Assembly (NCBI GenBank): GCA_015179125.1
Contig: WHVA01000585.1
Coordinates: forward strand, 1 to 64,000
Reading direction: 5' to 3'
DNA length: 64,000 nucleotides
DNA from: Gautieria morchelliformis
Lineage: Eukaryota > Basidiomycota > Agaricomycetes > Gomphales > Gomphaceae
This document shows positions 1-40,497 of this stretch, in pieces (position 1 is the first letter of the stretch; each line of letters starts with the position of its first letter). The position numbers and the translations under genes were made by a program. A model generated the notes under the pieces. It had not been told where the DNA came from, did no database searches, and saw only the letters and a list, made by a program, of their open reading frames with translations.

Positions 1-389
1 GGTCCAAGGAACCAGTTAATAAATGCCGAATTGTTGTGCCCGTTCCTCAGATGCAGGCTAGTCAGGTGACGACTCCGCTCGAACCTCTGCTTATTGTCCT
101 CCCCTTGTTTGGTTTCCAAAGGACACTGAGGAAGGCATGACAGGTCAACATAAGCCAAGGAGAGGCCTGTTAGACCTCTGGCACTTATAAAGTTTGTAAA
201 GTCGTCCAGGATAAATCGTGTCTCGGTGAAACATACAAACGCCACCGAGGGCAGTTCAAGTACCTGGAAAAGCGATTGTCTGAAATCCCCTGGCAAGTCA
301 CTCCAAGCCAGGCGTGAAATTTTGAGTTTCTGCACATGGGTGAGCTTGCGCAATAGTGGGGCGAGTGGTTCATCTGTCGCGGTCATTGG
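1..389 (-). pseudogene. F-box gene copy A, downstream part (split by Copia element 1, truncated by window edge)
   Basis: This is the middle of an F-box/leucine-rich-type protein whose start lies at 5232. Read on the minus strand it is open throughout and aligns with copies C and D, for example LLRKLTHVQKLKISRLAW and LETKQGEDNKQRFER. When the Copia element and one copy of its ATTGG target duplication are removed, the frame runs on without interruption (HHAP/MTATDEPLAPLL), so the gene was open when the element landed. The 3' end, including the small intron seen in the other copies, lies left of the window. F-box proteins normally recruit substrates to SCF ubiquitin ligases; the substrate is unknown. 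Confidence 0.85.
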
Positions 390-612
390 TGTTAGTAATC
401 GGGACGATGACACCGCCGAGGCAGAGCCGGCACGCACTTAGCCGAAGGTTCGAGATCGCTCTCGACCCCGGGTTGCTGGTGCACCGGCATCGCATCGGCA
501 CAGCAGCTCGAAGGGATTGGTAATATAATGGACACCATATTTTGTATATAAAGGAACGATCTACTTGAGATCAAGATAGAACATCAGATTATTATATCTC
601 CTTCGTTCCACA
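390..612 (+). repeat. 5' LTR of Copia element 1
   Basis: It begins TGTTAG and ends TTCCACA, and the same 223 bases recur at 4663-4885. A TATA-like box lies at 545-552. The copy at the 3' end also supplies the last codons and the stop codon of gag-pol. Confidence 0.96.
545..552 (+). promoter_or_regulatory. TATA-like box (TATATAAA) in the element 1 LTR
   Basis: A canonical TATA motif about 60 bases before the LTR end, suitable for starting the genomic transcript in the 5' LTR. The equivalent box in the 3' LTR is at 4818-4825. Confidence 0.6.
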
Positions 613-624
613 GGTTATGGGCCC
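613..624 (+). other. Primer-binding site of element 1 (GGTTATGGGCCC)
   Basis: It directly follows the 5' LTR. Its complement GGGCCCATAACC matches the anticodon stem-loop of an initiator tRNA-Met (CAU anticodon inside CCCAUAA) and not a tRNA 3' end. This is the half-tRNA priming site known from Drosophila copia. Elements 2 and 3 carry the same site. Confidence 0.8.
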
Positions 625-691
625 CGCGCATAACTAAACTACTACAAATCTAACTACGCTCTATACTCCAATAACTCAATACCGATCAACG

Positions 692-3600
692 ATGTCGAGT
701 AGCAATAACACGTACAAGATCGATCCCTTGAACGGGGATAATTACGCGGCGTGGCGCCGGCGGCTCGAGTGGATACTCGATGACTCAGATCTGTGGGACG
801 TGGCTATCGGCAGGGAGACGGAACCGAGACCGGCAGATGCCGACAACGTCACTGCGACCGAACAGCAGGAGATCGACGATTGGAGAAGGAAGGACAAGAA
901 GGCTAGAAAAGAGATTTGCCTCAGAGTTGCCGATGAACAACTAGTTTACATCAATCAGACGATGTCTGCGTTTGCTGTATGGACTAGTCTACAAGCTATA
1001 TTCGAATCTAAGGGAGCAGTGGGAATTGTAAATCTCCGAAGAGATTTCTTCCGGACGCTTGCCGAGGACGGCGCGAACATGGAGGAGCACGTACGCAAGC
1101 TCCGCGGCATTCAACAGGAACTGAATGCGCGGGGGCATTACATCAGTGACACCGAGTTCTCGAACACGTTGCTGACGTCATTACCAGATTCTTGGTCGGC
1201 GTTTATTACGGCAGTAAACGCCAGTGGAGCCGGGACAACAGCTGATATATTAATAGCTCGGGTCCTCGATGAGGATCGAGCACGGAAAGCTGGATCGGCA
1301 CGGCAGACGGCGCTTAAGGCGCAACAACGTCACAGGACCAGGAAAGATGACTCAGGAGCAACAAAGGGAAAGTGCCGAAATTGCGGCAAGAAGGGTCATT
1401 ACGTGAAGGACTGTTGGGCGAAAGGTGGCGGCAAAGAAGGCCAAGCGCCAAAATGGTTCAAATCAGGGAACAAAGAAACAGTCAAACAAGCAGAAGAAAA
1501 GGACTTCGCATTTGTATCTAAGGAGGTAGCATACAGTGCTATATCCGCATCCGACTGGTTAGCCGATTCAGCGGCAACAACACATATAGCTCGAAGCCGA
1601 AACGATTTCGCTAGCTATGCCGAGGAACCATCTGAAATCGAAGGAATTTCACCCGGTGCGGTACTACATACACAAGGCCGAGGCACTATATACATGGAAT
1701 TCAAGATCGGCACCAAGACGAACACGATCGAGCTACGTGACGTCAAACACGCACCAGATGCGCCGAACAACCTTATCAGCGTAGGGCGTTTAACTGATAA
1801 GGGCAACACGGCCACATTTTCAGGCACCGGCGTCGAATTCAAATCACGCGCCGGAGTTATCTTCGCACAGGGACAAAAGCGTGGGCGGCTGTTCTGTATG
1901 AAGGCACGGGTCACTCGATCAGTCGAGGCACGGGACTTTGCCGCAGCGGCAAAAGGACGGTCATGGGACAAATGGCACAGAATACTCAGGCACGTCAACA
2001 TAAATTCTATAAAGATGTTGAAATCTAACGATCTAGTCACCGGACTTGAGATCGACGAATCAAACGAGCCGAGCCAGTGCAAGGCATGCATACAAGGCAA
2101 GCGGCATGTGGAGCCGTTCCCCAAAAGAGCCGAGGACACTGTAGAACAGGTCGGTGACCTGACAGTATCCGATGTATGGGGACCTGCCCAGACCGAGGGA
2201 CCATCGCGTGAGAAATACTTTTATTCTTTCACGGACATCAAATCGAGGTACACCGTAATCTATTTTGGGAGCACCAAAGATGAAGCGCTCAAACACTTCG
2301 AGACGTACAAGGCATTCCTCGAGACCCAAACAGGTCAGAAACTGAAGAAGTTTCGCTCGGATAATGGAGGGGAATATGTCAATAAAAATTTCAAGGAATT
2401 TTGTGCAAAATATGGCATTATCATGGAGACCACAGCTCCATACTCCCCAGCCCAGAATGGAATCGCCGAACGACTCAACCGGACCTTACTCGAGCACGCA
2501 CGGGCAATGATATTTGCCAAGAACCTGCCAAAAATACTCTGGCCTGAGGCCGTGGCTTACGCGTGTTATATCAAAAATCGATCACCCACGCGAGCGCTTG
2601 GAGATGACGCAACGCCGTTCCAAGCACTATTCGGCAAGAAGCCGAACCTAGCACGTCTAGAGGAATTCGGGACAAATTGTTGGGTTATGGTGCTGGATCA
2701 ACGTCGAGCCAAACTTGATCCAAAGGCAGAAGAACATATATTCGTCGGAGTAGCTGAACATGCAAAGGCCTGGAGGTACTACAATAAAGCCTCAAAGCAC
2801 GTTCAAGTATCTAGGAACATTACATTTGACGAAAATGACAACCGACTCTACCCCATCCCAGATAACGACGATGACGACACGGCACCGCTCGAGGGGGAGC
2901 ACTCACCGCGCGAGCATGTGCCGGACCCGATCACATCTACCCCACAGACGTCATCACCCCAGACAACACCCGTTCCTGATCCACCTGAACAAGCGCCAGC
3001 TCCAGAGATCCGACGAAGCGCGCGTATCACTCAAAGACCGGATTACCGGAAGCTGAATAATTCAGGACGCACCGAGCAGGTTTACATAACGAAAGAAATC
3101 GTCACTGAACCTGAGAATTACAGAGCGGCGGTATCACGTGATGATGCGCCGATCTGGGAGAAAGCGATGGAAATTGAGATGGACCAACACAAGACGTTAG
3201 GAACATGGGAGCTAACAGAACTACCACCCGGACGAATAGCTATCGGTTGCCGATGGGTATACGCTGTCAAAACACAACCGGATGGACAATTCGATAAGGC
3301 TAAAGCAAGGGTTGTGGCTCAAGGATTCACACAGAGGCCAGGGATGGATTACTACGAGATAACCTCACCCGTGGTCAAATTCGATTCACTACGTGTTCTA
3401 TTAGCGATCGCAAACACACTCGATTGGGAAATCGAAATGATGGATGTCAAAGGCGCCTACCTCAATTCAACCATAGATGAGGAGATCTACATGCGCCAGC
3501 CCGACGGATTTGATGATGGATCTGGACGCGTTCTAAGAATATACAGAGCGCTCTACGGACTCAAGCAATCGGGACGAGCTTGGCATCAGCGCTTACGCAA

Positions 3601-4714
3601 ATTACTACTCGATCTCGGCTTCCATCAAAGTACAGCCGATGAATGCGTCTACATCAGACAAGATAAGGACTCAATCGAAGTCATATCAGTATATGTGGAC
3701 GACTTTGGACTATTTGCTGACTCCAAAGGAGGGATGATTAAGCTCAAGGGGGAGCTTCATGGAAAATTCCCCTTAACAGATTTAGGAGAAATGAAGAAAA
3801 TATTGGGAATTAGAGTTGAGAGGAATAGGGATGAGGGAACACTGATCATGTCACAAGGACATTACATCGACATCATACTCGATCGATTCAACATGACAAC
3901 GGCTCATTCGGTATCTACACCTCTGCATAAAATGATCAAACTCACGACACCCATGGACTCAACAGGTCCAACTGCCGAAGTACCTTATGCTAAGGCGATC
4001 GGATCACTCATGTATGCAGCACTCAGCACGCGACCTGATTTGGCCTTTACCGTACAACATCTGAGCCAATTCACTACTACTTACGGAACCGAGCACTGGA
4101 CGGCGATCAAGCACGCGCTCAGGTACCTCAAAGGGTCACGTGACGACGGCATAATCTTCCGACGAGACGCTGGTCTCGATCTCGAAATATTTGTCGACTC
4201 GGATTATGCTAATAGAAACGACGCACTATCTATTAGTGGCTACGTAGCTATACTAGGAGGAGGAACTATTGCATGGAGCTCGAAGAAGCAGCGAACGATT
4301 GCGCTATCTACCACGGAGGCCGAATACATGGCACTTACCGAGGGCGCCAAGCAATTAATCTGGCTGAGGCGTTTTATCGAAGAACTTGGAATCGATCAAA
4401 CCCAGCCCACGTCACTTCGATCAGACAATCTAGGCGCCATTACACTATCGCATGACGCAACGTATCATGCGCATACCAAACACATCAATGTCGCATATCA
4501 TTTCATCCGTGAGAAAGTGGTCTCTCACGAGGCATCACTTACATACGTACCGACGAAGGAGAACATAGCGGACATATTTACAAAGGGACTAGATATGCAT
4601 CAACACAGGTATCTATTAGGGAAATTAGGATTTTACCGAAGGGACTTCTCGCTGAGGGGGAGTGTTAGTAATCGGGACGATGACACCGCCGAGGCAGAGC
4701 CGGCACGCACTTAG
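692..4714 (+). CDS. Gag-Pol polyprotein of Copia element 1 (1340 aa)
   Basis: One frame without shift or stop. Approximate order: Gag; CCHC zinc knuckle CRNCGKKGHYVKDC (res ~229-242); aspartic protease WLADSAATTHIA (~290); integrase HHCC region WHRILRHVN...CKAC (~428-465); integrase DDE core with VSDVWGP (~494), SDNGGEY (~556) and NGIAERLNRT (~591); reverse transcriptase with MMDVKGAYLN and the YVDD box (~1002); RNase H with VDSDYANRND, STTEAEYMAL and TKHINVAYHF. All catalytic residues that I can locate are present. The start codon at 692 is the first ATG after the primer site and opens directly into a typical Copia Gag. The last 17 codons and the stop lie inside the 3' LTR. Confidence 0.96.
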   Translation: MSSSNNTYKIDPLNGDNYAAWRRRLEWILDDSDLWDVAIGRETEPRPADADNVTATEQQEIDDWRRKDKKARKEICLRVADEQLVYINQTMSAFAVWTSLQAIFESKGAVGIVNLRRDFFRTLAEDGANMEEHVRKLRGIQQELNARGHYISDTEFSNTLLTSLPDSWSAFITAVNASGAGTTADILIARVLDEDRARKAGSARQTALKAQQRHRTRKDDSGATKGKCRNCGKKGHYVKDCWAKGGGKEGQAPKWFKSGNKETVKQAEEKDFAFVSKEVAYSAISASDWLADSAATTHIARSRNDFASYAEEPSEIEGISPGAVLHTQGRGTIYMEFKIGTKTNTIELRDVKHAPDAPNNLISVGRLTDKGNTATFSGTGVEFKSRAGVIFAQGQKRGRLFCMKARVTRSVEARDFAAAAKGRSWDKWHRILRHVNINSIKMLKSNDLVTGLEIDESNEPSQCKACIQGKRHVEPFPKRAEDTVEQVGDLTVSDVWGPAQTEGPSREKYFYSFTDIKSRYTVIYFGSTKDEALKHFETYKAFLETQTGQKLKKFRSDNGGEYVNKNFKEFCAKYGIIMETTAPYSPAQNGIAERLNRTLLEHARAMIFAKNLPKILWPEAVAYACYIKNRSPTRALGDDATPFQALFGKKPNLARLEEFGTNCWVMVLDQRRAKLDPKAEEHIFVGVAEHAKAWRYYNKASKHVQVSRNITFDENDNRLYPIPDNDDDDTAPLEGEHSPREHVPDPITSTPQTSSPQTTPVPDPPEQAPAPEIRRSARITQRPDYRKLNNSGRTEQVYITKEIVTEPENYRAAVSRDDAPIWEKAMEIEMDQHKTLGTWELTELPPGRIAIGCRWVYAVKTQPDGQFDKAKARVVAQGFTQRPGMDYYEITSPVVKFDSLRVLLAIANTLDWEIEMMDVKGAYLNSTIDEEIYMRQPDGFDDGSGRVLRIYRALYGLKQSGRAWHQRLRKLLLDLGFHQSTADECVYIRQDKDSIEVISVYVDDFGLFADSKGGMIKLKGELHGKFPLTDLGEMKKILGIRVERNRDEGTLIMSQGHYIDIILDRFNMTTAHSVSTPLHKMIKLTTPMDSTGPTAEVPYAKAIGSLMYAALSTRPDLAFTVQHLSQFTTTYGTEHWTAIKHALRYLKGSRDDGIIFRRDAGLDLEIFVDSDYANRNDALSISGYVAILGGGTIAWSSKKQRTIALSTTEAEYMALTEGAKQLIWLRRFIEELGIDQTQPTSLRSDNLGAITLSHDATYHAHTKHINVAYHFIREKVVSHEASLTYVPTKENIADIFTKGLDMHQHRYLLGKLGFYRRDFSLRGSVSNRDDDTAEAEPART

Positions 4715-4885
4715 CCGAAGGTTCGAGATCGCTCTCGACCCCGGGTTGCTGGTGCACCGGCATCGCATCGGCACAGCAGCTCGAAGGGATTGGTAATATA
4801 ATGGACACCATATTTTGTATATAAAGGAACGATCTACTTGAGATCAAGATAGAACATCAGATTATTATATCTCCTTCGTTCCACA
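4663..4885 (+). repeat. 3' LTR of Copia element 1
   Basis: Base-for-base the same as 390-612 by eye, and preceded by the purine tract GAGGGGGAG. The gag-pol stop codon falls at 4712-4714 within it. Confidence 0.96.
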
Positions 4886-5232
4886 ATTGGGGCGTGGTGG
4901 TTGCATGAATACCGTTCACAGGACAAGTCAGGTAGCTCCAGCACCCGGATATAACTGGTAAGGTGGGGCGAGTGGAGTAGAGCCTGGTCGAGTCGCTGGA
5001 TATGTGCATGCAGCATTGCGAGCAGCACTCGTGGAGGCTTAAGATTTATGCGGTGAAAGAGGCGACGTTGGCTTGAGGGAAGCCAGAAACGGCAAACGAG
5101 CGAGTAGGCGCGCAGGTGAAGGTGGCTAATATCGTCCTTCTCGTCAACATGACCGATGATTTCATCAATGAGTTCTAGGGCTAGACTGTTCATGGTTGTT
5201 CGCAGGATGGCCGTAGTAGTGGCGGCGTTCAC
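4886..5232 (-). pseudogene. F-box gene copy A, 5' part with the F-box motif
   Basis: It starts with ATG at 5232 and encodes an N-terminal F-box (SLALELIDEIIGHVDEKDD, then SLVCRFWLPSSQRRLF), followed by the family-specific stretch LNSPHLTSYI-like and VLELPDLS. It is nearly the same as copies B, C and D. Codon 114 abuts the ATTGG target duplication of Copia element 1; beyond that the gene continues at 389. The intact frame on both sides suggests a functional gene recently knocked out. If translated up to the element it would give only a short F-box peptide ending in LTR-derived residues. Confidence 0.88.
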
Positions 5233-5451
5233 GTCAGGATATGAAACGTACGCTTGACGCTAAGTGGCGACGCTAGAGGTGTAACGTGCTTCAGATCTCT
5301 TGTTTGGATTTGTATCAGCATGCACTCACACTCACGGTGGATGACTATCCGTAGTCTTAAACCCCTACGAATAGAGCAAAAAACTCCAAAGTTGTCGAGA
5401 GCCAAAAAAGCGTGCGAAGATGGGCGTGTGAGTGAATGTGCGACTCGGAGA

Positions 5452-5470
5452 GTCCCTGCTAAATAGAGAC
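5452..5470 (-). promoter_or_regulatory. Conserved promoter-like block of F-box copy A
   Basis: On the minus strand this reads TCTATTTAGCAGGGAC, about 220 bases upstream of the ATG. The same block, with small changes, lies at a similar distance upstream of copies B, C, D and E, within a longer conserved 5' flank that ends near the motif ATTCGAATCACAT (5560-5572). Its TATTTA core may serve as a TATA element; this is inferred from conservation only. Confidence 0.5.
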
Positions 5471-5579
5471 CCGGCTGAGAGGGGACCTGTGAGACAACAC
5501 TGTCGTCAGCATCATAATTCAATCATATGTCGGAACGCCGCAACAACTAGTCGCCCTATTCGAATCACATAGGAGCTAT

Positions 5580-6133
5580 ATGCCTATAGCTCGGCCGGAA
5601 TTTTACCCTCTCAAGGACCTGGGTTTCAACGTACTAGCTGTATACGTCCACGTCAAGTCGTCGGCCTTGAGTAGGGCTGTCTGCGATTCTCCCGTAGCTA
5701 TCTTGGCTCACCCTACATTCCGTTTTGACCAAATCAGTTACTAGTAGTCATCCGTCATGTATCTCTGCAATAATTTCAGCAATAAATGTGTTTTCTAGTT
5801 TACTTATAAGCCGTGAGCGCGATTTATAATTTACAGCAGGGTGGGAATATGAAGGAAGTCATCAAAAAAGCCCGCAGGATTTGACGCGCCCTCTGCTTTC
5901 GATCACCCATCCAAACGAGGCGGTTCTGGCACATATGCCTTGACGAATACTCTGGACCACATCCCTCGTCAGTGTGCATAGAATAGGATCCCTATCTTGC
6001 CTAACAACACGGCAATGTTCGTATGATCTAGTACCTCACGGCTCCGCCACAGTCCACACTCAGCGCAGGCGTCCCCAAGGTCGACGGCTCTCAAACCGGT
6101 ACGAACCTTTTGCCAACATCACGACGCTTACAG
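5580..6133. other. Intergenic stretch, no gene recognised
   Basis: After the conserved F-box 5' flank the sequence becomes unique. A short inverted repeat, AGCTATA/TATAGCT, lies at about 5575-5592. Small ORFs near 5974-6243 show no recognisable motif. The end of this stretch may contain an intron of the membrane-protein exon that follows: an AG lies just before 6134. Confidence 0.4.
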
Positions 6134-6219
6134 GCTCCAGGCTTTATCGGTCTCATCGTCGGCCTCGGAGTAGTCATCATCCTATGCTGTCTTCTACCTC
6201 CTCTTTTATACAATATCTC
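6134..6219 (+). pseudogene. Exon encoding one transmembrane helix, cut by Copia element 2
   Basis: After a plausible 3' splice site (CTTACAG) the frame reads APGFIGLIVGLGVVIILCC followed by LLPPLLYNI, a strongly hydrophobic single-pass membrane segment. The Copia element 2 target duplication ATCTC sits at its end, and the frame would carry on at 11111 in a pyrimidine-rich tract. I do not recognise the family; small fungal membrane proteins with one glycine-rich helix are common. The exon call is an inference from hydrophobicity and the splice site. Confidence 0.4.
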
Positions 6220-6494
6220 TGTAGGATGTCGAGCGTCTTGTAGCTCGGCATGACCCGGGAAGGTGGAACAATTGGTCTGTGCTCGACCCCCTTTCAATCT
6301 GAGACACGCGTATTTGTATGAGCGTATGTACAATAGTGTAGTCTTCCCAGTGTGTTTTCGCTGCCACTGGGAAGTGAGTACCTAACCTGTATAACGAGAG
6401 CAAAGCTAACTAGCTTGTAGCTTACATTTGTCTTTAGGTAGTGTATACTACCTAGTGTGTTTTCGCTGCCACTGGGAACTTACATTTGTCTTTA
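6220..6494 (+). repeat. 5' LTR of Copia element 2, with internal unspliced/spliced tandem repeat
   Basis: The LTR runs from TGTAGG to TCTTTA. It holds two copies of a leader-like sequence. The first copy (6349-6436) is split by a 47-nt GT...AG segment. The second (6454-6494) has the same two flanks joined directly. A near-palindrome, AGGTAGTGTATACTACCT, spans the junction between the copies. Confidence 0.93.
6374..6420 (+). other. Intron-like segment inside the 5' LTR of element 2 (47 nt)
   Basis: It begins GTGAGTACC, contains GCTAAC (a CTAAC branch-site match about 10 nt before the end) and ends TTGTAG. The same left and right flanks occur 80 nt downstream (6454-6494) without this segment, joined exactly at the predicted splice junction. 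Size and signals match introns of host genes in this window. Confidence 0.75.
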
Positions 6495-6506
6495 GGTTAT
6501 GGGCCC
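6495..6506 (+). other. Primer-binding site of element 2 (GGTTATGGGCCC)
   Basis: Identical to the site in element 1 although the two LTRs are unrelated. Complementary to the anticodon arm of initiator tRNA-Met. Confidence 0.8.
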
Positions 6507-6543
6507 CGGCCCTACCTTCTGAACGCAAAAATCCACTGTAACA

Positions 6544-9500
6544 ATGCCAGCTACACCTCTTGATAAAATGAACAATTACCAGTCAAGTACTGGTACTGCC
6601 TACTCAGTGTTCCCAAAGTTGCACCATGATAATTACTTTTCATGGAGCGCAAGTATGGAGTCGATGTTGCGATCCCTCAACCAGTGGGAGGTTGTGATGG
6701 GAAGAGTCCCCGGTCCGATACGTGCTGACTCGAAAGCTCCTACGGAAGAGGAGCTGGAGCTAGAAGAAGCTTGGACGCTCCGGATGGAGCGTGCGTACAC
6801 AGAAATTGATCTGCGTCTTGAAGAACAGCAACGGACAGCGATTCGTGATAATCGCAACCCATGCTTGGCCTGGAACACACTGCATACGGTGTATGGCAAT
6901 CGTTTAGCGAATACGAGAGCGTCGCTGCTCGGAGAAATCACTCACATTCATTATGACGGTTCCGGTATCATGGAGCATAAAGCCAGGATGGACTCATTAC
7001 GTTTGAGGCTCATAGAAGCTGGCCATCCCGTTCCGGAGCCGCTCTATCTTAGCTTCTTTCTCAACACACTCCTGGAGGAGTTTGACGCAGTTACCAATAC
7101 CATCGACTGGGATCATGATACGGTGGCGGAATTGGTTGGCAATCTGCGTCAGGTGGAGATAAGGAAGGGTTTGCGCACCGGGGCAGAGGGCTCAGCGTTT
7201 GCTATAGCAAAGAAGAACCAACAAAAGCCCGGAACGACCTCAACTTCGACCTCGCAGGGGGCCACGCAGAGCACCCCACAGAGTGCGAGGGGGAGCAAGC
7301 CGAAGAAGTCTTCGGGACGCTCAGGCAAATGCTATAATTGCGGAGGTCAAGGTCATTTTGCAAAGGATTGCCCCTCTCCGAAGAAGAAGAGGGACAGCGG
7401 TTCGCAACAAGATAGAAAAAAGGACTCACCGACTGGCGATCAGGATAAGACCAAAGGGAGCCCTTCTACGTCGCGCGGCTTATTCTCAGTCATTGAGACT
7501 TCAATGTTCTTGGGCGATAGTCCTGTTACGCGGCGCTGCTTTATTGATACAGCGGCGTCAGGGAACTTTACGCCAAAAATAGAGGACTTACACGATTTCG
7601 TCCCATTTACGAGTCCTAGGTCCTTCACTGCCGCAAATGGTGCGGAGGTGCAATCGAAGGGTAGCGGTACTGTGAAAATCGGGATGAACAATCATGGAGA
7701 AAGGAGGACCGTTGAAATCCCGCACGTCCAGTGGGTGCCAAGCATTTATACGCACCTATTCTCTCCTGGACAGCTTATCAAAGATGGGTTCAAAGTAAAC
7801 CTCCACAGAGATGGCTGTACCATCAAAGACTCGGCGAATAGATTAGTAGCCGAAGTACGCGAAAGAGGAAACACTTACCCTGCGGATTTCTCGATCGTGC
7901 AGCTGGGTAACCCATGCCCGATTGTTCACTCGATCATAGAACCTACTGCAGAAGAGTTGAACAATAGACTCGATGAAGCAGTAATGGCACTTACAGTGAA
8001 GGAGGAGAATGATGCTATGCGTTGGCATCAGAGGCTCGGACATCTGAACGTCGCGGACGTGCGCAATTTGGCAGCGAAGCATGCCACAGGCATGCAAATC
8101 ATAGAAGATCAGATCAGTAGTGCGGATTGTTTGGCGTGCATACACGGTAAACAGCATAAGACGCCGTTTAAAACAGGGAGAACCAGAGCGACTCACGCAG
8201 GTGAATTGATCCATATGGACTTGGCCGGTCCCATGGAGACGACCAGCTTTGATGGAAAAAAATATTTCCTGATCATCGTGGATGATTATACACGAGCGAT
8301 TTGGGTGGAACCACTTACCCTCAAGTCGGAAGTCGTTTCCAAGGTACGAGAGTATATCCAGTTATTTGAAACTGGTTATGAAGCCAAGGTCCGAGGCATT
8401 ATGGCCGACAATGGAACCGAGTTCGTTAATAATGAGATGAACCGGTATTTAAAGGAGAAAGGAATCACCTTGTATACTTCAGTCCCTTACACGCACGAAC
8501 AGAATGGCGTCGCTGAAAGAGCGATCCGCACGATTACTGAGGGGGCGCGAGCGATGTTGTACGCATCCAAACTGCCAAAGAACTTGTGGTCAATGGCAGT
8601 GAAGACCATGGCGTACCTTCGCAATAGATCGCCGGCACGAGCTAATGGGGGAATTACGCCGATTGAGCGCATTACGGGTGAGAAGCCGAATTTAGCTCAC
8701 CTGAGAGTTTTTGGTTCCCCAGTCAGTGTTGCAATCCCTAAAGAAAAGAGGAAGAAATGGGATGTACGGTCACGTATGGCGTACATGGTGGGGTATGAAT
8801 CGTACTCCACTGGATACTTAGTCTGGTATCCAGGTACGCGCCGTGTGGATAAAGCGAGGGACGTCATCTTTCATGAAGACGCTGTAACCCCCGCAATACC
8901 TACAGTATACAGCGACAATGATATGCCTCGCAGTGTTAGCGAGTCAACGACGATGAAACCGACGTCGTACGTACCTCAAAAATCCTCAGCAGCACCTCAA
9001 GCTCCAGCTGTACCCCCGCGACTTTTCATACGCATCCCAGCACGCCCTACACGCGTCGAATATGGCCCTGAGGATCAGGGCCATGCTACAATTGAAGAAG
9101 TCTCCCCGGATCAGCCTGAACAAGAACGGTCAAAATTAGTTTCAGACGTACCTGATTTTCCTCAAGGAACAACGCGTTCAGGCAAAGCGCGAGGAGCGAT
9201 ACAGGCCTTACTAGCGACCGATGAGCAATTTCAAGACTCTGTAATAATGTCAGCTAATATTGCAGGAGAGCCAACGAACATAAACGATGCAGTGAGCTTA
9301 CCTGGTGAAGAAGGTGAAGCGTGGGAGCGAGCACGCCAGGCAGAATGGCAGAACATGGTCGATCATAACGTGTTCAGCGAGCCTGCAGAACCTCCTCCCA
9401 ATACGCAGGTGCTCAAAACGGGCACAGCACTGCGTTCGACGCGTCACAATGACATAATCACCAAACGCAAAGTTCGGATCGTCGCAAAAGGATATAGTCA

Positions 9501-10854
9501 AATCCCAGGTCTCCATTATAATGAGACCTACGCTCCTGTAATACGATGGGAAACTTTCCGCATCATCCTAGCTATCGGCGCGGTGTACGGCCTTGCAATC
9601 CGTCAATTCGACGTAAAATCAGCGTATTTACACGGAGTCATGCAAGAAGATGTATGGGTCGAGCAACCAGAAGGGTTTAGAGTACCGGGGAAGGAACACT
9701 TACCAGTGAGACTGAAGAAAGCCCTTTATGGAACGAAGCAAGGCGGAAATCAATGGAGGAAGACCCTCGAAGAGTTTATGAAGACGCTCGAATGGACCTG
9801 CTCAGAGCACGATCAAGCGTTATTCTTCAAAACGTGGGATGATGGATCATGGGCCATCGTTGGATTCTGGGTCGACGACGCTACATCAGTAGGTCACGAA
9901 AATCGACTCATGGGGCTTGAAGACGCGTTCAGCAATCGATTCGGCGTGTCCGGTCAGGGAGACGCACATTGGATCCTTGGGACAGCCATAACTCGTAATG
10001 CTAAGTCTCATTCTATCCATATCTCGCAAGAAAGTTATATTGAGGACATAGCGGTGAAATTCAAAGTACAGAATACAAAACCACCCAAAATTCCCATTCC
10101 CCTCGGCATCGACTTCTCCGCGATCGCGAACGATGACGAACAAACGAAGGATTTCCCCTATCGAGAACTTATAGGCAGCTTAATGTTCGCTGCCACCGTG
10201 TCGCGCCCTGACATAGCACATGCTACCAATAAATTGGCGCAATACTCGTCAAATCCTAGCCAAACTCATTGGAATCTGGCTAAGCGAATCCTTCAATATG
10301 TATATCACACTCGCGACCGAATCTTAACACTCGGTGGAGAAAATTTCACTTTATGTGCGTACTCAGATGCAGATTTTGCTGGAGATTCCGAGGACAGGAA
10401 ATCGACGAGCGGAAACGCTCTATTTTTGGGTAAAGGTGCCGTTTCGTGGTCCTCAAAGAAACAGAACATTGTTGCTCTGTCCTCTACAGAATCGGAATAC
10501 ATCGCACTATCCGAAGCTGCGCGTGAGATACTATGGACACGTCGACTTCTTCAAGAATTGCGTTTTACACTAGACGAACCCACCATCATCTACGAGGACA
10601 ACCAGGGAACCATCGCGTTTGCTAACCACCAAAAGCCATTACGTCGGATGAAGCACATTGACGTCAAGTACCATTTTATTAGGCAGCAAATTACCGACGG
10701 TACAATCCAACTGAAATACAAGCCATCCTCCAACATGACCGTGGACATTTTTACGAAATTCCTTTCCCCATCCACCTTCGACCTTCATTCCAAATCACTC
10801 GGCCTCTCTACTGCAACGCTCGAGGGGGAGTGTAGGATGTCGAGCGTCTTGTAG
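6544..10854 (+). CDS. Gag-Pol polyprotein of Copia element 2 (1436 aa)
   Basis: A single open frame. In order: Gag; zinc knuckle CYNCGGQGHFAKDC (res ~263-276); protease FIDTAASGNFTP (~334); integrase WHQRLGHLNVADV...CLAC (~494-535), DDE core HMDLAGP (~557), MADNGTEF (~620) and NGVAERAIRT (~654); RT with RQFDVKSAYLHG and catalytic box FWVDD (~1107); RNase H YSDADFAGDSEDRKSTSG, SSTESEYIALSEAAREI and MKHIDVKYHF. The RT box has W where YVDD is usual; both aspartates are kept. The start at 6544 is the first ATG after the primer site; an in-frame alternative is at 6568. The stop lies inside the 3' LTR. No frameshift separates gag from pol. Confidence 0.96.
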   Translation: MPATPLDKMNNYQSSTGTAYSVFPKLHHDNYFSWSASMESMLRSLNQWEVVMGRVPGPIRADSKAPTEEELELEEAWTLRMERAYTEIDLRLEEQQRTAIRDNRNPCLAWNTLHTVYGNRLANTRASLLGEITHIHYDGSGIMEHKARMDSLRLRLIEAGHPVPEPLYLSFFLNTLLEEFDAVTNTIDWDHDTVAELVGNLRQVEIRKGLRTGAEGSAFAIAKKNQQKPGTTSTSTSQGATQSTPQSARGSKPKKSSGRSGKCYNCGGQGHFAKDCPSPKKKRDSGSQQDRKKDSPTGDQDKTKGSPSTSRGLFSVIETSMFLGDSPVTRRCFIDTAASGNFTPKIEDLHDFVPFTSPRSFTAANGAEVQSKGSGTVKIGMNNHGERRTVEIPHVQWVPSIYTHLFSPGQLIKDGFKVNLHRDGCTIKDSANRLVAEVRERGNTYPADFSIVQLGNPCPIVHSIIEPTAEELNNRLDEAVMALTVKEENDAMRWHQRLGHLNVADVRNLAAKHATGMQIIEDQISSADCLACIHGKQHKTPFKTGRTRATHAGELIHMDLAGPMETTSFDGKKYFLIIVDDYTRAIWVEPLTLKSEVVSKVREYIQLFETGYEAKVRGIMADNGTEFVNNEMNRYLKEKGITLYTSVPYTHEQNGVAERAIRTITEGARAMLYASKLPKNLWSMAVKTMAYLRNRSPARANGGITPIERITGEKPNLAHLRVFGSPVSVAIPKEKRKKWDVRSRMAYMVGYESYSTGYLVWYPGTRRVDKARDVIFHEDAVTPAIPTVYSDNDMPRSVSESTTMKPTSYVPQKSSAAPQAPAVPPRLFIRIPARPTRVEYGPEDQGHATIEEVSPDQPEQERSKLVSDVPDFPQGTTRSGKARGAIQALLATDEQFQDSVIMSANIAGEPTNINDAVSLPGEEGEAWERARQAEWQNMVDHNVFSEPAEPPPNTQVLKTGTALRSTRHNDIITKRKVRIVAKGYSQIPGLHYNETYAPVIRWETFRIILAIGAVYGLAIRQFDVKSAYLHGVMQEDVWVEQPEGFRVPGKEHLPVRLKKALYGTKQGGNQWRKTLEEFMKTLEWTCSEHDQALFFKTWDDGSWAIVGFWVDDATSVGHENRLMGLEDAFSNRFGVSGQGDAHWILGTAITRNAKSHSIHISQESYIEDIAVKFKVQNTKPPKIPIPLGIDFSAIANDDEQTKDFPYRELIGSLMFAATVSRPDIAHATNKLAQYSSNPSQTHWNLAKRILQYVYHTRDRILTLGGENFTLCAYSDADFAGDSEDRKSTSGNALFLGKGAVSWSSKKQNIVALSSTESEYIALSEAAREILWTRRLLQELRFTLDEPTIIYEDNQGTIAFANHQKPLRRMKHIDVKYHFIRQQITDGTIQLKYKPSSNMTVDIFTKFLSPSTFDLHSKSLGLSTATLEGECRMSSVL

Positions 10855-11105
10855 CTCGGCATGACCCGGGAAGGTGGAACAATTGGTCTGTGCTCGACCC
10901 CCTTTCAATCTGAGACACGCGTATTTGTATGAGCGTATGTACAATAGTGTAGTCTTCCCAGTGTGTTTTCGCTGCCACTGGGAAGTGAGTACCTAACCTG
11001 TATAACGAGAGCAAAGCTAACTAGCTTGTAGCTTACATTTGTCTTTAGGTAGTGTATACTACCTAGTGTGTTTTCGCTGCCACTGGGAACTTACATTTGT
11101 CTTTA
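10831..11105 (+). repeat. 3' LTR of Copia element 2
   Basis: The same sequence as 6220-6494, including the intron-like segment at 10985-11031 and the joined copy at 11065-11105. It carries the gag-pol stop codon at 10852-10854. Confidence 0.95.
10985..11031 (+). other. Intron-like segment inside the 3' LTR of element 2
   Basis: Identical to 6374-6420. Left flank 10960-10984 and right flank 11032-11047 reappear fused at 11065-11105. Confidence 0.75.
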
Positions 11106-11350
11106 ATCTCGCTACTTTCTCACCTCCTTTCCTTTCCTTTCCTTTCAACCTCCTCCTACTCCCCCCTCTCCTTCACGCTCGCATCCCAAGCTGTCTCTCC
11201 CCGACGCCAGACGTCCGGTTTATCATATCGATATCGATGCCCTGTCTTCGCTCCCACGCCCGAGTCCGAGCCGTTGTGTTTGCACCCACCCAACCCCCCG
11301 GCCTTCCCCGAGCCCGGTGTCTGTCCCTGTCGGTGTACGCTCCCCGGTGC

Positions 11351-11661: not shown

Positions 11662-12066
11662 ATACAGGATAGCGGCAGGCGGTAGGTAGCTCAGCGACTG
11701 GCCCAACCTCCTCGTATTGAGGCAAATGGCCACACATGTGACCCTTTTGAACCGGGAAGCAGCTTCGCTACAGTACAGTATAGCTGGCACGAGTTAGAGC
11801 ATAGGCGTCAGGATGGCGCAGCCCAAAATATATAACGGCAAAATAATCCGAGTACCTCTGATTGAGGTTCATCTGTGGAGGAGTCGGGATTGGTGGGTCG
11901 TGGGTCATGGTTGACCTTGGTCTTAAGCTCCTACTCTTAGCTAAGCTTCATCCAGCTGTGTTAATGCTGGTACTGTATTTCCGCTCTTTACAGAATTTGA
12001 TCAGTCCACCCACAGAAATGTTTGTGTAAATGCCAATTATATCCCACTTAATCCCGGGGGATTCTT

Positions 12067-13367
12067 CTAACAGAAGATACAATGGGAATGATCAATTCGC
12101 TCACAAGAAGCCACCCTAACGCCTCGTGTTGCTAATGACGGATGGCCGGCAACCATCTCCTTATGCCTCTTAACCTCAGAGTCACCACGTAAGAGATTGA
12201 TGTACAGCACCCGCAGAAACTTGAAATGAGGCCTCGCGAGGGCGCTGTACGCTTCTTCCCAATCTGCCCAGTCCAAGGCAACCACGCCAAGAGGCCCCAT
12301 ACGTGGATCCATACGCAATTCCATACGATGTATATGGTTGGATGCATCGATAGTAGACAGGACCCTCCTTAAGGTGGATAGGCTGTTCCTTCCCATATTC
12401 ACGCGAACCAAACTTAAGGTTTCAATATTCACGTTGAACGCCAGATTCACGAAGACGCAGGCTTTTGCTATCAAGTCAGGCAAAGTTTTTGTGTTCAATC
12501 AAACAGGTGGTCACTCACAGGCAGATGGCTGGATAATAGAGACGTGTTTGAGTGAGAAGGGAGAGCTATGTGTAACGTATGGACGTGCGACACGCCCAAA
12601 TGTGATCGAGGTCCAAGGGACCAGCTAATAAATGCGGAATTCTCGTACCCGTTCCTCATATCCAGGCTAGTCAGGTGAATGCGATTCTCGAACCTCTGTT
12701 TACTGTCCTCCCCTTGGTTGGTTTCCAAAGGAGGCCGAGGAAGCCACGACATGTCGATAAGATTTAAGGAGAGGCCTGTTAGGCCTCTGGCACGATTTAT
12801 AAAGTTCGTAAAGTCGTCCATGGGAGTAAATAGAGCGGAGGTGATACGTACAAACGCCATCGAGAGCAGCTCAAGTAGTACCTGGCCAAGCAATTCTCTG
12901 GCATCCTCTAGCAGCAAGAACTCCCAAGCCAGGCCTGAAATTTTGAGCTCCTGCACATGGGTGAGCTTGGGCAATAATGGGGAGAGTGTATAATCTATTG
13001 CAATCCAACCTGGGGTGCAGGGGTGGGGGTGGGGGTGGGTGTATGCAGAGAAAGGGAGCGACAAGTCAGGTAGCTCCAGCACTCGGATATATCTGATCAG
13101 ATGGGGGGAGTTGAGTAGAAGCTGGTTGAGTCGCTGGATATGGGCACGCAGCATTGCGGGCTGCACTGGTGTAGACATAAGATTTATGTGGTGAAAGAGG
13201 CGACGTTGGCTTGAGGGAAGCCAGGATCGGCAAACGAGCGAGCAGGCGAGCAGGTGAAAGCGGCTAATATCGTCCTTCTCGTCAACATGACCGATGATTT
13301 CATCAAGGAGTTCTAGGGCTAGACTATCCATGGTTGTTCGTAGGATGGCCGTGGTAGTGGCGTTCAC
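12067..13367 (-). pseudogene. F-box gene copy B, frameshifted
   Basis: ATG at 13367; the F-box SLALELLDEIIGHVDEKDD is intact, and the leucine-rich-like middle aligns with copies C and D. The 51-nt intron is conserved (12468-12518; donor GTGAGT, branch CTGAC, acceptor GATAG), and exon 2 (12067-12467) ends in a stop. Exon 1 however is 849 nt, a multiple of 3, while in C and D it is 3n+1. About 43 nt coding for the GDASVNRLLRAIG region are missing just before the junction, so exon 2 is read out of frame. Without splicing the protein stops at 290 aa. I infer a pseudogene or a C-terminally altered protein. Confidence 0.8.
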
Positions 13368-13593
13368 GCCAAAATATGAAATGTGGGCTTGACGCTGAGC
13401 TGTGAAGCCAAAGGCTCGGTGCTGCCTCAGATATCTTGTTTGGATTTGTATGAATATGTGCCACTCACCCTCACAGTAACTTATCCGCAGTCCTAAATCC
13501 TTACGAATAGAGCGAAAGGACGTGCCGCGGTAAAGTTAGCGCGACAGCCAAAAAAGCGTTTGAGCGAGGACGCAAGTGTGGGAGTGACTCGAT

Positions 13594-13612
13594 GTCTCTG
13601 CTAAATAGAGAC
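13594..13612 (-). promoter_or_regulatory. Conserved promoter-like block of F-box copy B
   Basis: Minus-strand TCTATTTAGCAGAGAC, about 230 bases before the ATG, matching the block of copies A, D and E. Confidence 0.5.
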
Positions 13613-13734
13613 CCCGGCTGAGAAGGGACCTGGGAGACAACGCTCTCATCAACATAATTCAATGACATAGTCGCCCTATTCGAATCACATAGGAGCATAC
13701 ATTGTACACGTACAGAATCTCAATCTACACACCA

Positions 13735-14165
13735 GTGACACCACGCACGCCCCGCCCGCAGGCATCGACGTCATCACGATCCGTACGGGCTCTCCACCTC
13801 CCCGCCGGGGCCCTCCCGCACCCAGAACCCTACCTCGCAGGCCCCGGCGCGCGTGTCCGCGTCCGCGTCCACGCCCGCCGCCGCGTCCTCCAGGACGAGC
13901 ACGAGCGTGGTGTGCAGCCCCGCGGCGCTCCGCCCGTCCGCGGCCGGCGTGGGTCCCCGACGACCAGCTGCGCCCCTGTGCGCGTAGCTTCACATGCGAC
14001 ACGCCCTGCGCCGTGCAGGGGTGCTTGCCCGCCTTGGGGACCTGCACACACAATCCAGTCAGCCAGCCACGGGCACCACGCACACTCGTCACTATGCGTA
14101 GGGGAGCGCACCCGCCGGTCCCGAGGCGTAACATCTTCACAGAAAAACGGAGGCCGGCCGAGGGA
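13735..14165 (-). pseudogene. Glyoxalase-like gene relic next to F-box B/C
   Basis: Collinear with the last exon, second intron and end of exon 2 of the intact gene at 23160-24109 (shared HPCTAQGVSHVKLRA, then the intron ending in TGTGTGCAG, then the FFCEDVTPRDRR region). Two deletions break the frame: a few bases in the YGRIVMTPM coding part near 13780, and about 32 bases in the RAGAELHT coding part near 13920. The 5' half of the gene is missing and is replaced at about 14166 by a protein kinase fragment on the opposite strand. Confidence 0.75.
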
Positions 14166-14672
14166 GGTCCGTGTACGGGCTCCGCCCGCGCCTGCCCGCT
14201 TGCGCCACCCTCACACACGCGCAGTGGGACGCCGACGCCCCGGGGTCGGACGTCGCCAACCGCGACCACGACCACGAGGCGCAGAGCGTGGTCGCCATCA
14301 AGATGATCGACTGCACTTGCCTCAGCTTCGTGCGCGAGGTGGAGGTCGTACGCGTGAGCACCGCATCTCTCTCGTCTTCCCCGCCCGTCGCTCACCCCCC
14401 GCGCGTCTGTCCCCGGCAGCACATCTCGCACCCCTCCATCGTGGCGTACCTCCACTCCTTCACGACGCCGACGCACCACTGCCTCGTGCTCGAGGCGTTG
14501 GAGACGCTGCACGGCGGCGAGGGCTTCGAGCTCCTCGACCACGGCGACAGCCACGCAGGCACGCCCGAGCAGCTCCTCCGCCGCATCTGCGGCGAGCTCT
14601 GCCTCGCCGTCTCGTGGATGCACGCCGTCGGCCTCGCGCGCCTCATAGACCCCGCGCGCCCCGTGAGGTGCG
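14166..14672 (+). pseudogene. Serine/threonine protein kinase fragment
   Basis: Two exons of a kinase N-lobe: VVAIKMIDC (the subdomain II lysine), FVREVEVV (the alphaC glutamate), then a 66-nt intron (14354-14419, GTGAGC...GGCAG), then HPSIVAYLHSF, HCLVLEALE and a C-lobe start LLRRICGELCLAVSWMHAVGL. The sequence leaves the kinase pattern exactly where the catalytic HRD motif should follow (GLARLIDPARP). There is no start codon context, glycine loop or C-lobe. It is joined head to head with a glyoxalase relic, so it arrived by rearrangement. It cannot encode an active kinase. Confidence 0.7.
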
Positions 14673-14748
14673 GGCATGGCGAATGTCACCCGGAAACTGA
14701 TCCGTCTACCCACAGAAATGTTCGTGTAAATCCCAAATTATATCCCAC

Positions 14749-16137
14749 TTAATTCCAGGGATTATCAGAACAAAATACACAACAATGGTAACTATTAATT
14801 TGCTCAGAACACACCCTAACGCCTCGTGTTGCTAATGACGGATGTCTGGCAACCATGTCCTTACTCATCTCAACCACAGGGTCACCGTGTAAGTGGGGAT
14901 GATGATCGGGAGCACCGTGCTCGGGCTCGATATTGATGTACAGCACCCGCAGAAACTGGAAGTGAGGCCCCGCAAGGACGCTGTACACTTCTTCCCAAGC
15001 TGCCCAATCCACGAAGCCACCCACGCGGCCAAGAGGATCCATACGCAATTCCATATGATGTATACGGTTAGATGCATCGATAGTAGACAGGACCCTCCTT
15101 AAGGTGGATAGGCTGTCCCCTCGCATATCCATGTCAACCAAACTTAAGACTTCAATATTCACGTTGAATGCCAGATTAACGAAGACGCAGGCTTTTGCTA
15201 TCAAGTCAGGCAATGTTTTTGTGTTCAATCAAACAGGTGGTCACTCACAGGAATATGGTTGGATAATAGAGACGTGCTTGAGTGAGCTTCCGATGGCGCG
15301 AAGTAACCTGTTGACACTAGCATCTCCAGCGTCAGGGTGCCCTATGTGCAATGTATGGATGTGCGACACGTCCAAGTGTGACCGAGGTCCAAGGAGCCAG
15401 TTAATAAACACTGGATTGTTGTGCCTCCACCGCGGCCTCATATGCAGGCTAGTAAGGTGAATGCGATTCCGCTCGAACATCTGGTTATTATCCTCCCCTT
15501 GTTTGGTTTCCAAAGGACGCCGAGGAACCCATGACACGTCAACAAGAATTAAGGAGAGGCCTGTTAGGCCTCTGGCATGATTTATAAAGTTCGTAAAGTC
15601 ATCCGTGCGAGTAAATATAGCTTCGTTGATACATACAAACGCCATCGAGGTAAGCTCAAGTACCTGGCAAAGTGATTGTCTGAAATCACCCGGCAAGTCA
15701 CTCCAAGCCAGGCCTGAAATTGTGAGTTTCTGCACATGGGTGAGCTTGCGCAATAGTGGGGGGAGTGGATTATCTATCGCAATCCAACTTGGGGAGCCGG
15801 GGTGGTCGTATGTAGAAAGTTCACAGCTCGATAAGTCAGGTAGCTCCAGCACTAGGATATAACTGGTAAGGTGGGGCGAGTTGAGTAGAACCTGGTCGAG
15901 TCGCTGGATTTGTGCATGCAGCTTCGCGAGCTGCAGTGGTCGACGCTTAAGATTTATGTGGCGAAAGAGGCGACGTTGGCTTGAGGGAAGCCAGAAACGG
16001 CAAACCAGCGAGCAGGCGAGCAGGTGAAAATGGCTAATATCGTCCTTCTCGTCAACATGACCGATGATTTCTTCAAGGAGTTCTAGGGCTAGACTATCCA
16101 TGGTTGTTCGTAGGATGGCCATGGTAGTGGCGTTCAC
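14749..16137 (-). CDS. F-box protein, copy C (445 aa, one intron)
   Basis: Exon 1 is 16137-15249, the intron 15198-15248 (51 nt: GTGAGTGACC start, CTGAC branch, GATAG end), exon 2 15197-14749. The exons add up to 446 codons including the stop, and the junction restores the frame as QPYS/SKACVFVNLAFN. The N-terminal F-box is SLALELLEEIIGHVDEKDD...RFWLPSSQRRLF; the rest is leucine-rich, ending in a conserved block DWAAWEEVYSVLAGPHFQFL. F-box proteins bind SKP1 and present substrates to a cullin ubiquitin ligase; the target is unknown. This is the best-preserved copy. Without splicing a stop follows immediately (SCE*). A glyoxalase relic and the conserved 5' block lie upstream. Confidence 0.88.
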
Positions 16138-16385
16138 GCCAGGATAATATGAAACGTGGGCTTGACGCTGAGCGGCGAAGCTAAAGGCTCGGAGCTGAGG
16201 TGAAACGTGCCTCAGTTATGTTGTTTGAATTTGTATCGATATGTGCTCACCCTCACAGTGGATGACAACTTATCCGTAGTCCTAAATACCCACAAATAGA
16301 GCAAAAAACTGTTGCAAAGTTAGTGCCAGAAGCGTGTGCGAGGATGGGCGTGCGGCGCAAGCGTGTGAGTGAAATGTGCGAGGTT

Positions 16386-16400
16386 GCTGCTAAATAGAGG
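16386..16400 (-). promoter_or_regulatory. Conserved promoter-like block of F-box copy C
   Basis: Minus-strand CCTCTATTTAGCAGCA, about 250 bases upstream of the ATG. It is one of five such blocks in the window. Confidence 0.45.
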
Positions 16401-16504
16401 CCCCGGCTGAGAGGAGACCTGTGAGACAACGCCGTCATCGATGATGGAATATCGCAAGATGGAGACACCTAGCTCCTAGGTGATTCGAATAGGGCGACCT
16501 CGTC

Positions 16505-16712
16505 ACCCCACACATCTACAGCACGGCCCGCCGCGGGTATCGGCGTGATCGCGATCCGTGCTCTGCACCTCCCCGCCCATCCCGCACCCAGAACGCGACC
16601 TCGCAGATCCCGGCGCGCGTCCACACTACCTCCTGGGTCCTCCGAGCAGGACGAGCATGAGGGTGGTGTGTGCCACTCCCGTGCGGGGCGCCTGTAGGCG
16701 CCACACCTTTAC
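16505..16712 (-). pseudogene. Glyoxalase-like gene relic upstream of F-box C
   Basis: Aligns with part of the last exon of the intact gene (GRIAITPI-like end, then the AGICEVAFWVRDG block, then the HTTLMLVL coding part). It breaks off near 16712, and the rest of the gene is absent. Just before it, the ATTCGAATAGGG motif of the F-box 5' flank is in inverted orientation compared with copies A and B, showing a local rearrangement. Confidence 0.65.
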
Positions 16713-18130: not shown

Positions 18131-18138
18131 GCTTTGAC

Positions 18139-20165: not shown

Positions 20166-20169
20166 CACT

Positions 20170-35829: not shown

Positions 35830-35980
35830 TGTTGGAGTTACACGCGTGACCGTGCCGCGTACACAAGTACCCACACTCTGGCGGGTACTTGAGACGCGAG
35901 TCGGAGTTTCACCCTTTCCCTCAGTTACATCACACGTATTGTGAGACTGAGAACTGATCCCTCGGGTACAGTTTCCTACA
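35830..35980 (+). repeat. 5' LTR of Copia element 3
   Basis: TGTTGGAGTT...TTTCCTACA. It lacks the 52-nt GT...AG segment of the 3' LTR; the junction lies between 35951 and 35952 (CTGAG/AACTG). At seven sites it has C or G where the 3' LTR has T or A. Confidence 0.92.
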
Positions 35981-40287: not shown

Positions 40288-40294
40288 GGGGGTG

Positions 40295-40497
40295 TGTTGG
40301 AGTTACACGCATGACCGTGCCGCGTACACAAGTACCCACACTCTGGTGGGTACTTGAGACGTGAGTCAGAGTTTCACTCTTTCCCTCAGTTACATCACAT
40401 GTATTGTGAGACTGAGGTAAAGTGCACCCATACTTGCGCATATACTTTATTGATAGCCCTGTATCTAGAACTGATCCCTTGGGTACAGTTTCCTACA
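40295..40497 (+). repeat. 3' LTR of Copia element 3, carrying the extra 52-nt segment
   Basis: Same ends as the 5' LTR (TGTTGG...CCTACA). Compared with the 5' LTR it has six transitions at CpG positions and one at a CCC, all in the direction C to T or G to A, plus the insertion 40417-40468. Confidence 0.92.
40417..40468 (+). other. Intron-like segment in the 3' LTR of element 3 (52 nt)
   Basis: Begins GTAAAG, has TTGAT before its end, and ends ATCTAG. It is exactly absent from the 5' LTR. The flanking bases are GAG on the left and AG at the end of the segment, so a deletion between short AG repeats would give the same junction; splicing is not proven. Confidence 0.5.

Follow-up and report, generated by a model that had tools for sequence, protein, structure and literature searches.

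How can a long terminal repeat (LTR) come to hold an intron-like segment and, right behind it, its own flanks already fused? This question is raised by a Ty1/copia element at positions 6220-11105 of a stretch of 64,000 nucleotides from the basidiomycete Gautieria morchelliformis (the window). Our best explanation, taken as a whole very probable, is that transcripts would be spliced in their leader and that both states would have been stored in the LTR by reverse transcription. Its core statement, that spliced-leader cDNA would have been set beside an unspliced LTR end to give an unspliced and a spliced copy, is held more firmly still.

Layout of the window element

The features of the element are the following.

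6215..6219 (+): left target-site duplication (TSD) ATCTC, from a letter check of the flank
6220..6494 (+): 5' LTR in tandem (T) form, 275 nt, 100% identical to 10831-11105
6343..6374 (+): complementary arms CTTCCCAGTG/CACTGGGAAG read from the sequence, whose final G opens the splice donor
6349..6373 (+): exon B copy 1, 25 nt, with the transcript start proposed near its left edge
6374..6420 (+): putative intron I, 47 nt, with GTGAGT donor, CTAAC at 6406-6410 and TAG at 6418-6420
6421..6436 (+): exon C copy 1, 16 nt
6437..6453 (+): connector K, 17 nt (GGTAGTGTATACTACCT)
6438..6495 (+): possible second intron K + B2 + C2, AG/GTA...TTTAG/, 58 nt
6454..6478 (+): second copy of exon B, the same as 6349-6373
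6479..6494 (+): second copy of exon C, joined to B with no intron between them; LTR end
6495..6508 (+): primer-binding site (PBS) GGTTATGGGCCCCG, 14 nt that are the complement of nt 27-40 in the host gene for tRNA-iMet
6544..10854 (+): frame for gag-pol (1436 aa), its domains ordered as in Ty1/copia
10822..10830 (+): polypurine tract GAGGGGGAG, read from the sequence
10831..11105 (+): 3' LTR, 275 nt, identical to the 5' LTR, with B at 10960-10984, intron at 10985-11031, C at 11032-11047, K at 11048-11064 and fused B-C at 11065-11105
11106..11110 (+): right TSD ATCTC

The gag - integrase - RT order, the two 275-bp LTRs with the 5-bp TSD ATCTC/ATCTC and the tRNA primer site adjoining the 5' LTR place the element among the Ty1/copia LTR retrotransposons. 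Pfam domains in the frame are Retrotran_gag_2 (38-208), zf-CCHC (261-278), gag_pre-integrs (480-537), rve (550-650) and RVT_2 (971-1185). One-frame gag, integrase and RT, a 5-bp TSD and a PBS complementary to the tRNA-iMet anticodon arm are common to Ty1/copia (Pseudoviridae) elements such as Drosophila copia, which uses a half-tRNA-iMet primer; to our knowledge copia has neither an intron inside its LTR nor a spliced leader copy. The PBS at 6495 is, by its complementarity, a predicted half-tRNA primer site. The same genome has two host tRNA-Met(cat) genes (contigs C166 and C567); two patterns built from initiator-tRNA arms had no match in the genome and a third matched two places. CA followed by the half-tRNA-iMet PBS is found at 717 places in the genome, which suggests that many of its elements probably use half-tRNA priming.

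Both LTRs have the order U3 - exon B - 47-nt GT-AG intron - exon C - K - fused B-C. Every letter of the joined B and C at 6454-6494 equals those of the two separated exons, and only one position is possible for the junction, since B ends in A, the 47-nt segment starts and ends with G, and C starts with C. The preliminary description had located the flanks, the 47-nt segment and the fused copy, had named the GTGAGT donor, CTAAC and TAG, and had seen unspliced and fused copies in both LTRs; a letter-by-letter check bears all of this out, with LTRs that are 100% identical. An RNA fold of window copy 1 (-19.9 kcal/mol) forms the arm stem and leaves the donor GT (6374-6375) unpaired between paired stretches; in six of seven copy-1 folds the donor's first base lies within the stem. 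The window LTR (6220-6494) appears recombinant, its U3 grouping with GTGACTATT-type LTRs and its right half resembling the L024 type, as expected if U3 and R-U5 derive from different RNAs.

The first 217 nt of the LTR contain 3108 possible segments of 40-60 nt, and all of them were compared with the pattern GTRNGT + CTNAY + YAG. A single one fits, namely 6374-6420; none of 3108 fits on the other strand of the same LTR part, and 13 of 400,000 random segments of the 64-kb window do.

LTR forms in the genome

Three forms of LTR occur in this genome, tandem (T), intron-only (I) and spliced-only (S), and all three have TSDs at some loci. The intron-plus, intron-minus and tandem copies that the preliminary description had proposed to look for are hence all found. 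Pattern searches gave 87 unspliced-type places, versus 1 in the reversed control, and 84 spliced-type places versus 178, the two-mismatch rows being therefore weak. The counts are lower bounds from one genome, with the best candidates scored.

The 111 parsed rows comprise 58 with an unspliced and a spliced copy, 22 with an unspliced copy alone, 28 with a spliced copy alone, and one each with two (L029) and three (L040) unspliced copies before the fused one. The lone row scored as spliced+spliced (L023) is really a deletion across the donor. A recount of the 28 spliced rows gave 19 S LTRs with a first-copy arm (L088 at 601 is broken within C), seven fragments or broken tandem LTRs (L086, L089, L090, L091, L095, L102, L104) and two rejected chance matches (L038 at 959, L098 at 1042). 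The 22 unspliced rows resolve into 14 clean I LTRs, L078 with a shortened intron, four with K or a second copy behind (L054, L067, L082, L085) and three broken ones (L064, L081, L084).

With LTR boundaries picked for best agreement, flanking 5-mers agree at 5/5 positions around solo T LTRs (L024, L045, L046, L047, L059, L070, L075, L077), solo S LTRs (L037 GATTG, L097 AGGTG, L098 CTTTG), solo I LTRs (L051, L055) and the L029 LTR with two unspliced copies. Elements with two S LTRs have the TSDs GATCC (C215) and GAAAT (C304, LTRs 9 kb apart). The two identical T LTRs of the C1 element have unlike flanks (GTATG/CAACT). Mixed insertions are L069, T then I with flanks ATGTT/ATATT, and L071, I then T with ATCTT on both sides. 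Chance or an assembly artefact was rejected as the source of these forms in view of the many loci and of the TSDs on T, I, S and multi-copy LTRs. A search of viral contigs, a set that may omit records close to the genome of the window, matched no relatives.

The segment absent from copy 2 is GT..AG in 59 of 60 parsed T LTRs, three of the 59 being doubtful (L021 and L022 have a deletion in the segment, L020 is badly parsed) and the placing script having favoured AG where placements tied. The preliminary description had counted a short copy formed by deletion with other endpoints as evidence against itself; such deletions were looked for in this set, and the outcome favours the description, the exception being L015, one LTR of which ends TAC and its sister TAG. 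Over 40 distinct introns of 40-60 nt, among which those of I LTRs were picked because their 3' end matched, conservation is 85-100% at the six donor positions and 92-100% at the last 16, and falls as low as 32% elsewhere; against conservation of splice signals only, much of the mid-intron AACCTGTATAAC also reaches 88-100%. GTRAGT-like donors, CTAAC or similar, YAG and short length give the segment the form of a spliceosomal intron. In 55 of the window family's 60 T LTRs it measures 47, 48 or 50 nt, and its lengths and signals are presumably those of host introns. In two I-form 5' LTRs, L065 (C282) and L074 (C763), the acceptor reads GTGG in place of GTAG, and these introns may no longer be spliced.

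The two copies within one LTR tend to agree. Among 52 distinct T LTRs, C1 equals C2 in 40, the B loop is equal in 31 and both are equal in 27; against this, 25 of the 52 have at least one difference in the B loop or in C. When 60 LTRs were re-paired 10,000 times, the observed mean distance was never reached for B or for C, but this control leaves in the effect of subfamily membership, and C1 had been placed at its best match to C2, as also in the T rows of other families, which leans towards agreement. The B loop variants of the window clade (TTTT, CTTT, TTTTT, CCTT) are the same in both copies of 14 of 15 distinct T rows; in L019 CCTT is common to both copies, plus one further change. The first base of exon C, which adjoins the junction, is the same in both copies of all 59 rows (T in 32, C in 27; L020 left out), and also in 15 T rows of other families, where it is A, C, G or T. 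In T LTRs read, the likeness of copy 2 to copy 1 starts at about the left edge of B (AGTG/AGTT).

Twelve T-form LTR pairs were compared (window, C1, C331, C773, C387, C904, C275, C729, C716/C171, C354, C2, C347), with the L017 array left out and with doubtful pairing for C1 (unlike flanks) and C716/C171 (two contigs, same flank); 11 of them have no B1/B2 or C1/C2 difference common to both LTRs. The exception is C2 (L126/L129), where B1 and B2 differ in both LTRs, which suggests that copy 2 is not rewritten every cycle.

Some loci have unusual structures. L017 (C157:125274-128797) is a short non-autonomous array: three successive T LTRs are spaced at 1123 bp, an element with an internal deletion lies between them, and the outer flanks are GAAAG/GAAAG. 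In L039 (C693) a polypurine tract precedes the LTR and a PBS follows it, as in a tandem or circle-derived copy. The LTRs L067 (C384), L134 (C36) and L084 (C728) run into their own reverse complement near the B hairpin and look like self-primed snap-back cDNA, a reading that would put the cDNA 3' end at B. The tandem without K in L056 was not counted as an independent event, since a GTCTTT-GTCTTT deletion explains it equally.

Related families and the C804 insertion

The same LTR plan recurs in three groups of families, two of them with LTR text unrelated to that of the window element and with the same or a similar half-tRNA-iMet primer site. Three copia families were examined whose RT shares 36-39% identity with that of the window element. 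One of them (C354, L111/L112) has the plan of the window LTR in unrelated letters; C280 and C870 have other sequence at the PBS place and no visible tandem. Among 14 loci picked by the CA+PBS pattern the plan is clear in three (L119, L125 and, by eye, L126), and it is not seen in ten, most of which are one short-LTR family. L120 (C1:422375) has a related odd leader, in which half of B alone is repeated behind a GTAAGT segment.

Twenty further LTR regions were selected by hairpin and donor, so that S forms could not be picked. The script reads nine of them as T (L127, L129, L130, L132, L135, L136, L137, L142, L145) and L146 is T with an extra unspliced copy. L131 reads as T by eye with a segment ending AT, not AG, L143 is a degenerate T, L133 and L144 are I forms, and L134 is the snap-back palindrome already mentioned; the plan is unreadable in L128, L138, L139, L140 and L141, five of the 20.

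Over the 15 T rows exon C is strongly unlike between families, yet equal or nearly so between its two copies. It ends YAG in nearly all of them, and K starts GTA except in L145. In that locus (C162) the hairpin has flipped, its loop in copy 2 being the copy-1 loop in reverse complement (ATGGGAGAT / ATCTCCCAT). In the CTCAGTG and element-3 groups the junction has 2 nt of play (AG) and is exact within that limit; in the window family it is unique. Intron lengths are 51-54 nt in other families and 52-53 nt in the family of element 3. K as a leftover of the PBS (GGT..) was rejected for the other groups: a tail parts copy 2 from the PBS there, and K still starts with GTA in nearly all rows.

Element 3 is a degenerate copia element of the window (35830-40497, flanks GAGAT/GATAT, 4/5) with unlike LTRs.

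35830..35980 (+): element 3 5' LTR, 151 nt, intron-less, junction 35951/35952
40295..40497 (+): element 3 3' LTR with a 52-nt GT-AG segment at 40417-40468, at the same place

The 5' LTR equals the 3' LTR minus exactly the 52-nt segment (GTAAAG...TATCTAG), with 7 mismatches in 151, and the PBS matches the first 11 of 14 nt (GGTTATGGGCC). A genome search with the element 3 LTR, in which the best 40 of 117 candidates were scored, found all forms. Fourteen loci of this family comprise eight T (L147 with a broken second C), three I (L151 with an extra leader, L152, L157) and three S (L153, L154, L155); L162 and L163 are also T.

The I LTRs L151 and L152 are the 5' and 3' LTRs of one insertion in C804. 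They are 203 bp each, identical and intron-bearing, lie ~4.6 kb apart and are bounded on their outer sides by the TSD GTGCA/GTGCA. Between the 5' LTR and the PBS are 56 extra nt, absent behind the 3' LTR, which match at every letter the leader between the first base of B and the last of the LTR, except that a 53-nt GT-AG segment is missing. As read, the insertion shows an unspliced + spliced joint apparently made in one step, at one end. An RNA with a spliced leader and an unspliced 3' LTR would have been copied, as minus strand, to the RNA 5' end, and the LTR would then have been placed ahead of the leader that was kept. By its left edge, the 56-nt copy places the transcript start at the left edge of B, allowing a 2-nt (CA) overlap. 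Both LTRs have the intron and the extra leader alone is without it, which points to intron removal and not to gain.

C804 and element 3 come, at the level of sequence, close to direct evidence for unspliced/spliced joining. They give good support to the idea, put forward in the preliminary description, that an unspliced 3' end was joined to a spliced 5' leader. The joint is thus upheld by C804, but the assembly envisaged there does not hold for the window LTR itself as a fresh event: its tandem is an inherited architecture common to families.

Proposed mechanism, alternatives and precedents

Transcription would start inside the LTR at the left edge of exon B, host splicing would take intron I from the 5' leader, joining B to C, and the LTR at the RNA 3' end would retain its intron. 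During reverse transcription the spliced-leader cDNA would come to adjoin the full unspliced LTR end; in established families the tandem would be passed on by inheritance. The stem across the donor may keep splicing partial. Legible directly in the DNA are the exact GT-AG difference, its recurrence in three groups and the one-end joint of C804; we infer that the host spliceosome would remove intron I, where transcripts would start and which strand transfer would make the joint, the first-strand transfer proposed in the preliminary description being a candidate.

Against this scheme, splicing of intron I alone from a T transcript followed by normal copying predicts LTRs with two fused copies around K, of which there are none among the 111 parsed rows. 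An extra assumption is therefore required: either K-B2-C2 is also removed, or the leader cDNA slips. That fused-K-fused LTRs are missing agrees with the loss of both introns or of neither. K-B2-C2, which measures 51-60 nt in 54 of the 55 T LTRs parsed in the window family, is a possible second intron; against this, most of its donors do not have the G that is usual at +5. In the window family the final G of K-B2-C2 is also the first PBS base, and by design only the 5' LTR would consequently have this intron. S and I forms can also arise by slippage between T repeats, without splicing.

A tentative extension, against which we lean slightly, is that the fused copy 2 of the 3' LTR acts as a landing pad that receives spliced-leader cDNA, so that the intron survives reverse transcription. 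At the first strand transfer, cDNA of a fully spliced leader would anneal to the fused copy in the 3' LTR, the upstream intron copy would be taken from that LTR and the pad would be rewritten from the spliced leader. In our view this rewriting would be why the fused copy is often identical to its own upstream exons. The pad would lie inside the second intron (AG/GTA..YAG/), whose removal from the leader would close the cycle exactly. Mis-landing of the cDNA on copy 1 would yield S LTRs, failures that lose the intron, and an unspliced leader landing on copy 2 would yield multi-copy LTRs.

If true, a retroelement would hold its intron through repeated cycles of copying from spliced RNA. Copying via spliced RNA normally removes introns, which is the principle of retrotransposition intron reporters. 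Dozens of copia LTRs appear to hold an intron beside the record of its removal; if the reading is right, the spliced leader, the transcript start and the strand transfer with its errors would be legible in genomic DNA, and the protection of an intron through reverse transcription becomes a testable question.

An unlikely alternative derives the tandem from one ancient duplication, subsequently expanded, contracted and homogenised by RT slippage and unequal template switching, the intron being a relic with no present splicing. As inheritance predicts, K starts GTA in 53 of 55 parsed T LTRs. The multi-copy LTRs L029 and L040 agree with this alternative too, and so do the L069 and L071 insertions, whose LTRs differ by exactly the terminal 58-bp K-B-C block. 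The forms are moreover scattered over a U3 tree of 102 rows and 155 columns (61 T, 21 S, 18 I, 2 multi-copy; 35 of 84 inner branches drawn open), requiring 32 changes versus a shuffled mean of 36.0, with 12 of 200 shuffles as low; the starred branches require at least 9 changes for S and at least 10 for I, and identical U3 is found in the window LTR and S LTRs. This tree left out the 2 chance rows and 8 rows without a first-copy arm and added the I LTR L071; by the recount, its S rows L091 and L102 are copy-2 fragments and three of its I rows are broken. Slippage, however, would hardly carry a change in the first base of C into both copies, since this base is flanked by the intron in copy 1 and by B in copy 2, and the base agrees without exception. 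Conservation of donor and acceptor also tells against a relic, as does the new unspliced + spliced joint that C804 has at one end of one insertion.

It is improbable that transcription starts at copy 2 (K/B2), with B1-I-C1 merely part of U3 and splicing without a role in replication. Such a start would keep T LTRs stable and explain the missing fused-K-fused LTRs, but it leaves the conservation of the splice signals and the agreement of the copies without a reason, gives none for the C804 leader, which begins where B begins, and does not suit L119, where TATATAAG begins 29 nt upstream of B1. Very improbable is the gain of the intron by copy 1 of an older fused tandem (B-C-K-B-C). It would lead to the same end state, and S LTRs exist; the fused-K-fused precursor is nevertheless absent from the parsed rows, both identical C804 LTRs have the intron that the extra leader alone lacks, and the plan recurs in three groups with the same geometry. 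A chance deletion in a plain tandem duplication, ending at GT and AG by accident, has nothing beyond its bare possibility in its favour and is scarcely credible when the only one of 3108 segments to fit is exactly this one and the arrangement repeats in unrelated families.

The preferred reading, leader splicing recorded by reverse transcription, has partial parallels. In HTLV/BLV and foamy viruses the major splice donor lies in R, as the putative donor of the window family lies within its LTR transcript; their acceptor is far downstream, the PBS is removed and genomic RNA is unspliced. Penelope-like elements have an intron in their terminal-repeat region, near a repeated end of the retroelement as here, and are another element class without LTR-type strand transfers. 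Among copia elements, copia has a spliced Gag RNA without about 2.9 kb of pol (PMC3735527), the 104-nt intron of barley BARE1 starts just behind the gag domain end and alters the protein (PMC3735527), and an intron of Arabidopsis EVADE takes out the protease (review PMC12786077). BARE1 and EVADE resemble the window family in being copia elements with optional introns and distinct RNA forms, but the cited passages of PMC3735527 and PMC12786077 neither place the intron in the LTR nor mention a tandem left by it. SpIREs are L1 copies of the human genome that derive from spliced RNA, and are presented as generally dead ends (PMC5860796); like the window family they derive from RNA spliced in the 5' UTR and reverse transcribed, with the splice kept in the genome. 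A spliced genomic form with TSDs is found here in S LTRs and S/S elements (best-agreement boundaries). SpIREs differ in being non-LTR and in recording the spliced form alone, whereas T, I and S LTRs have all integrated here; the window element, with copia domains and LTRs, is not of the non-LTR (L1) type. Yeast elements add literature context (PMC7175516). A literature search with most subscription journals outside its coverage found no precedent for an LTR with an intron and its spliced copy.

The window contains two other features of note. A copia element at 389-4885 has 100% identical LTRs (389-612 and 4662-4885), an open frame at 638-4714 and the same half-tRNA PBS at 613, with no intron or tandem visible. 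Three large direct repeats of about 2 kb, 77-81% alike, occupy 11998-23644, and related pieces are found at 1-380, 4887-5611 and 40762-41289.
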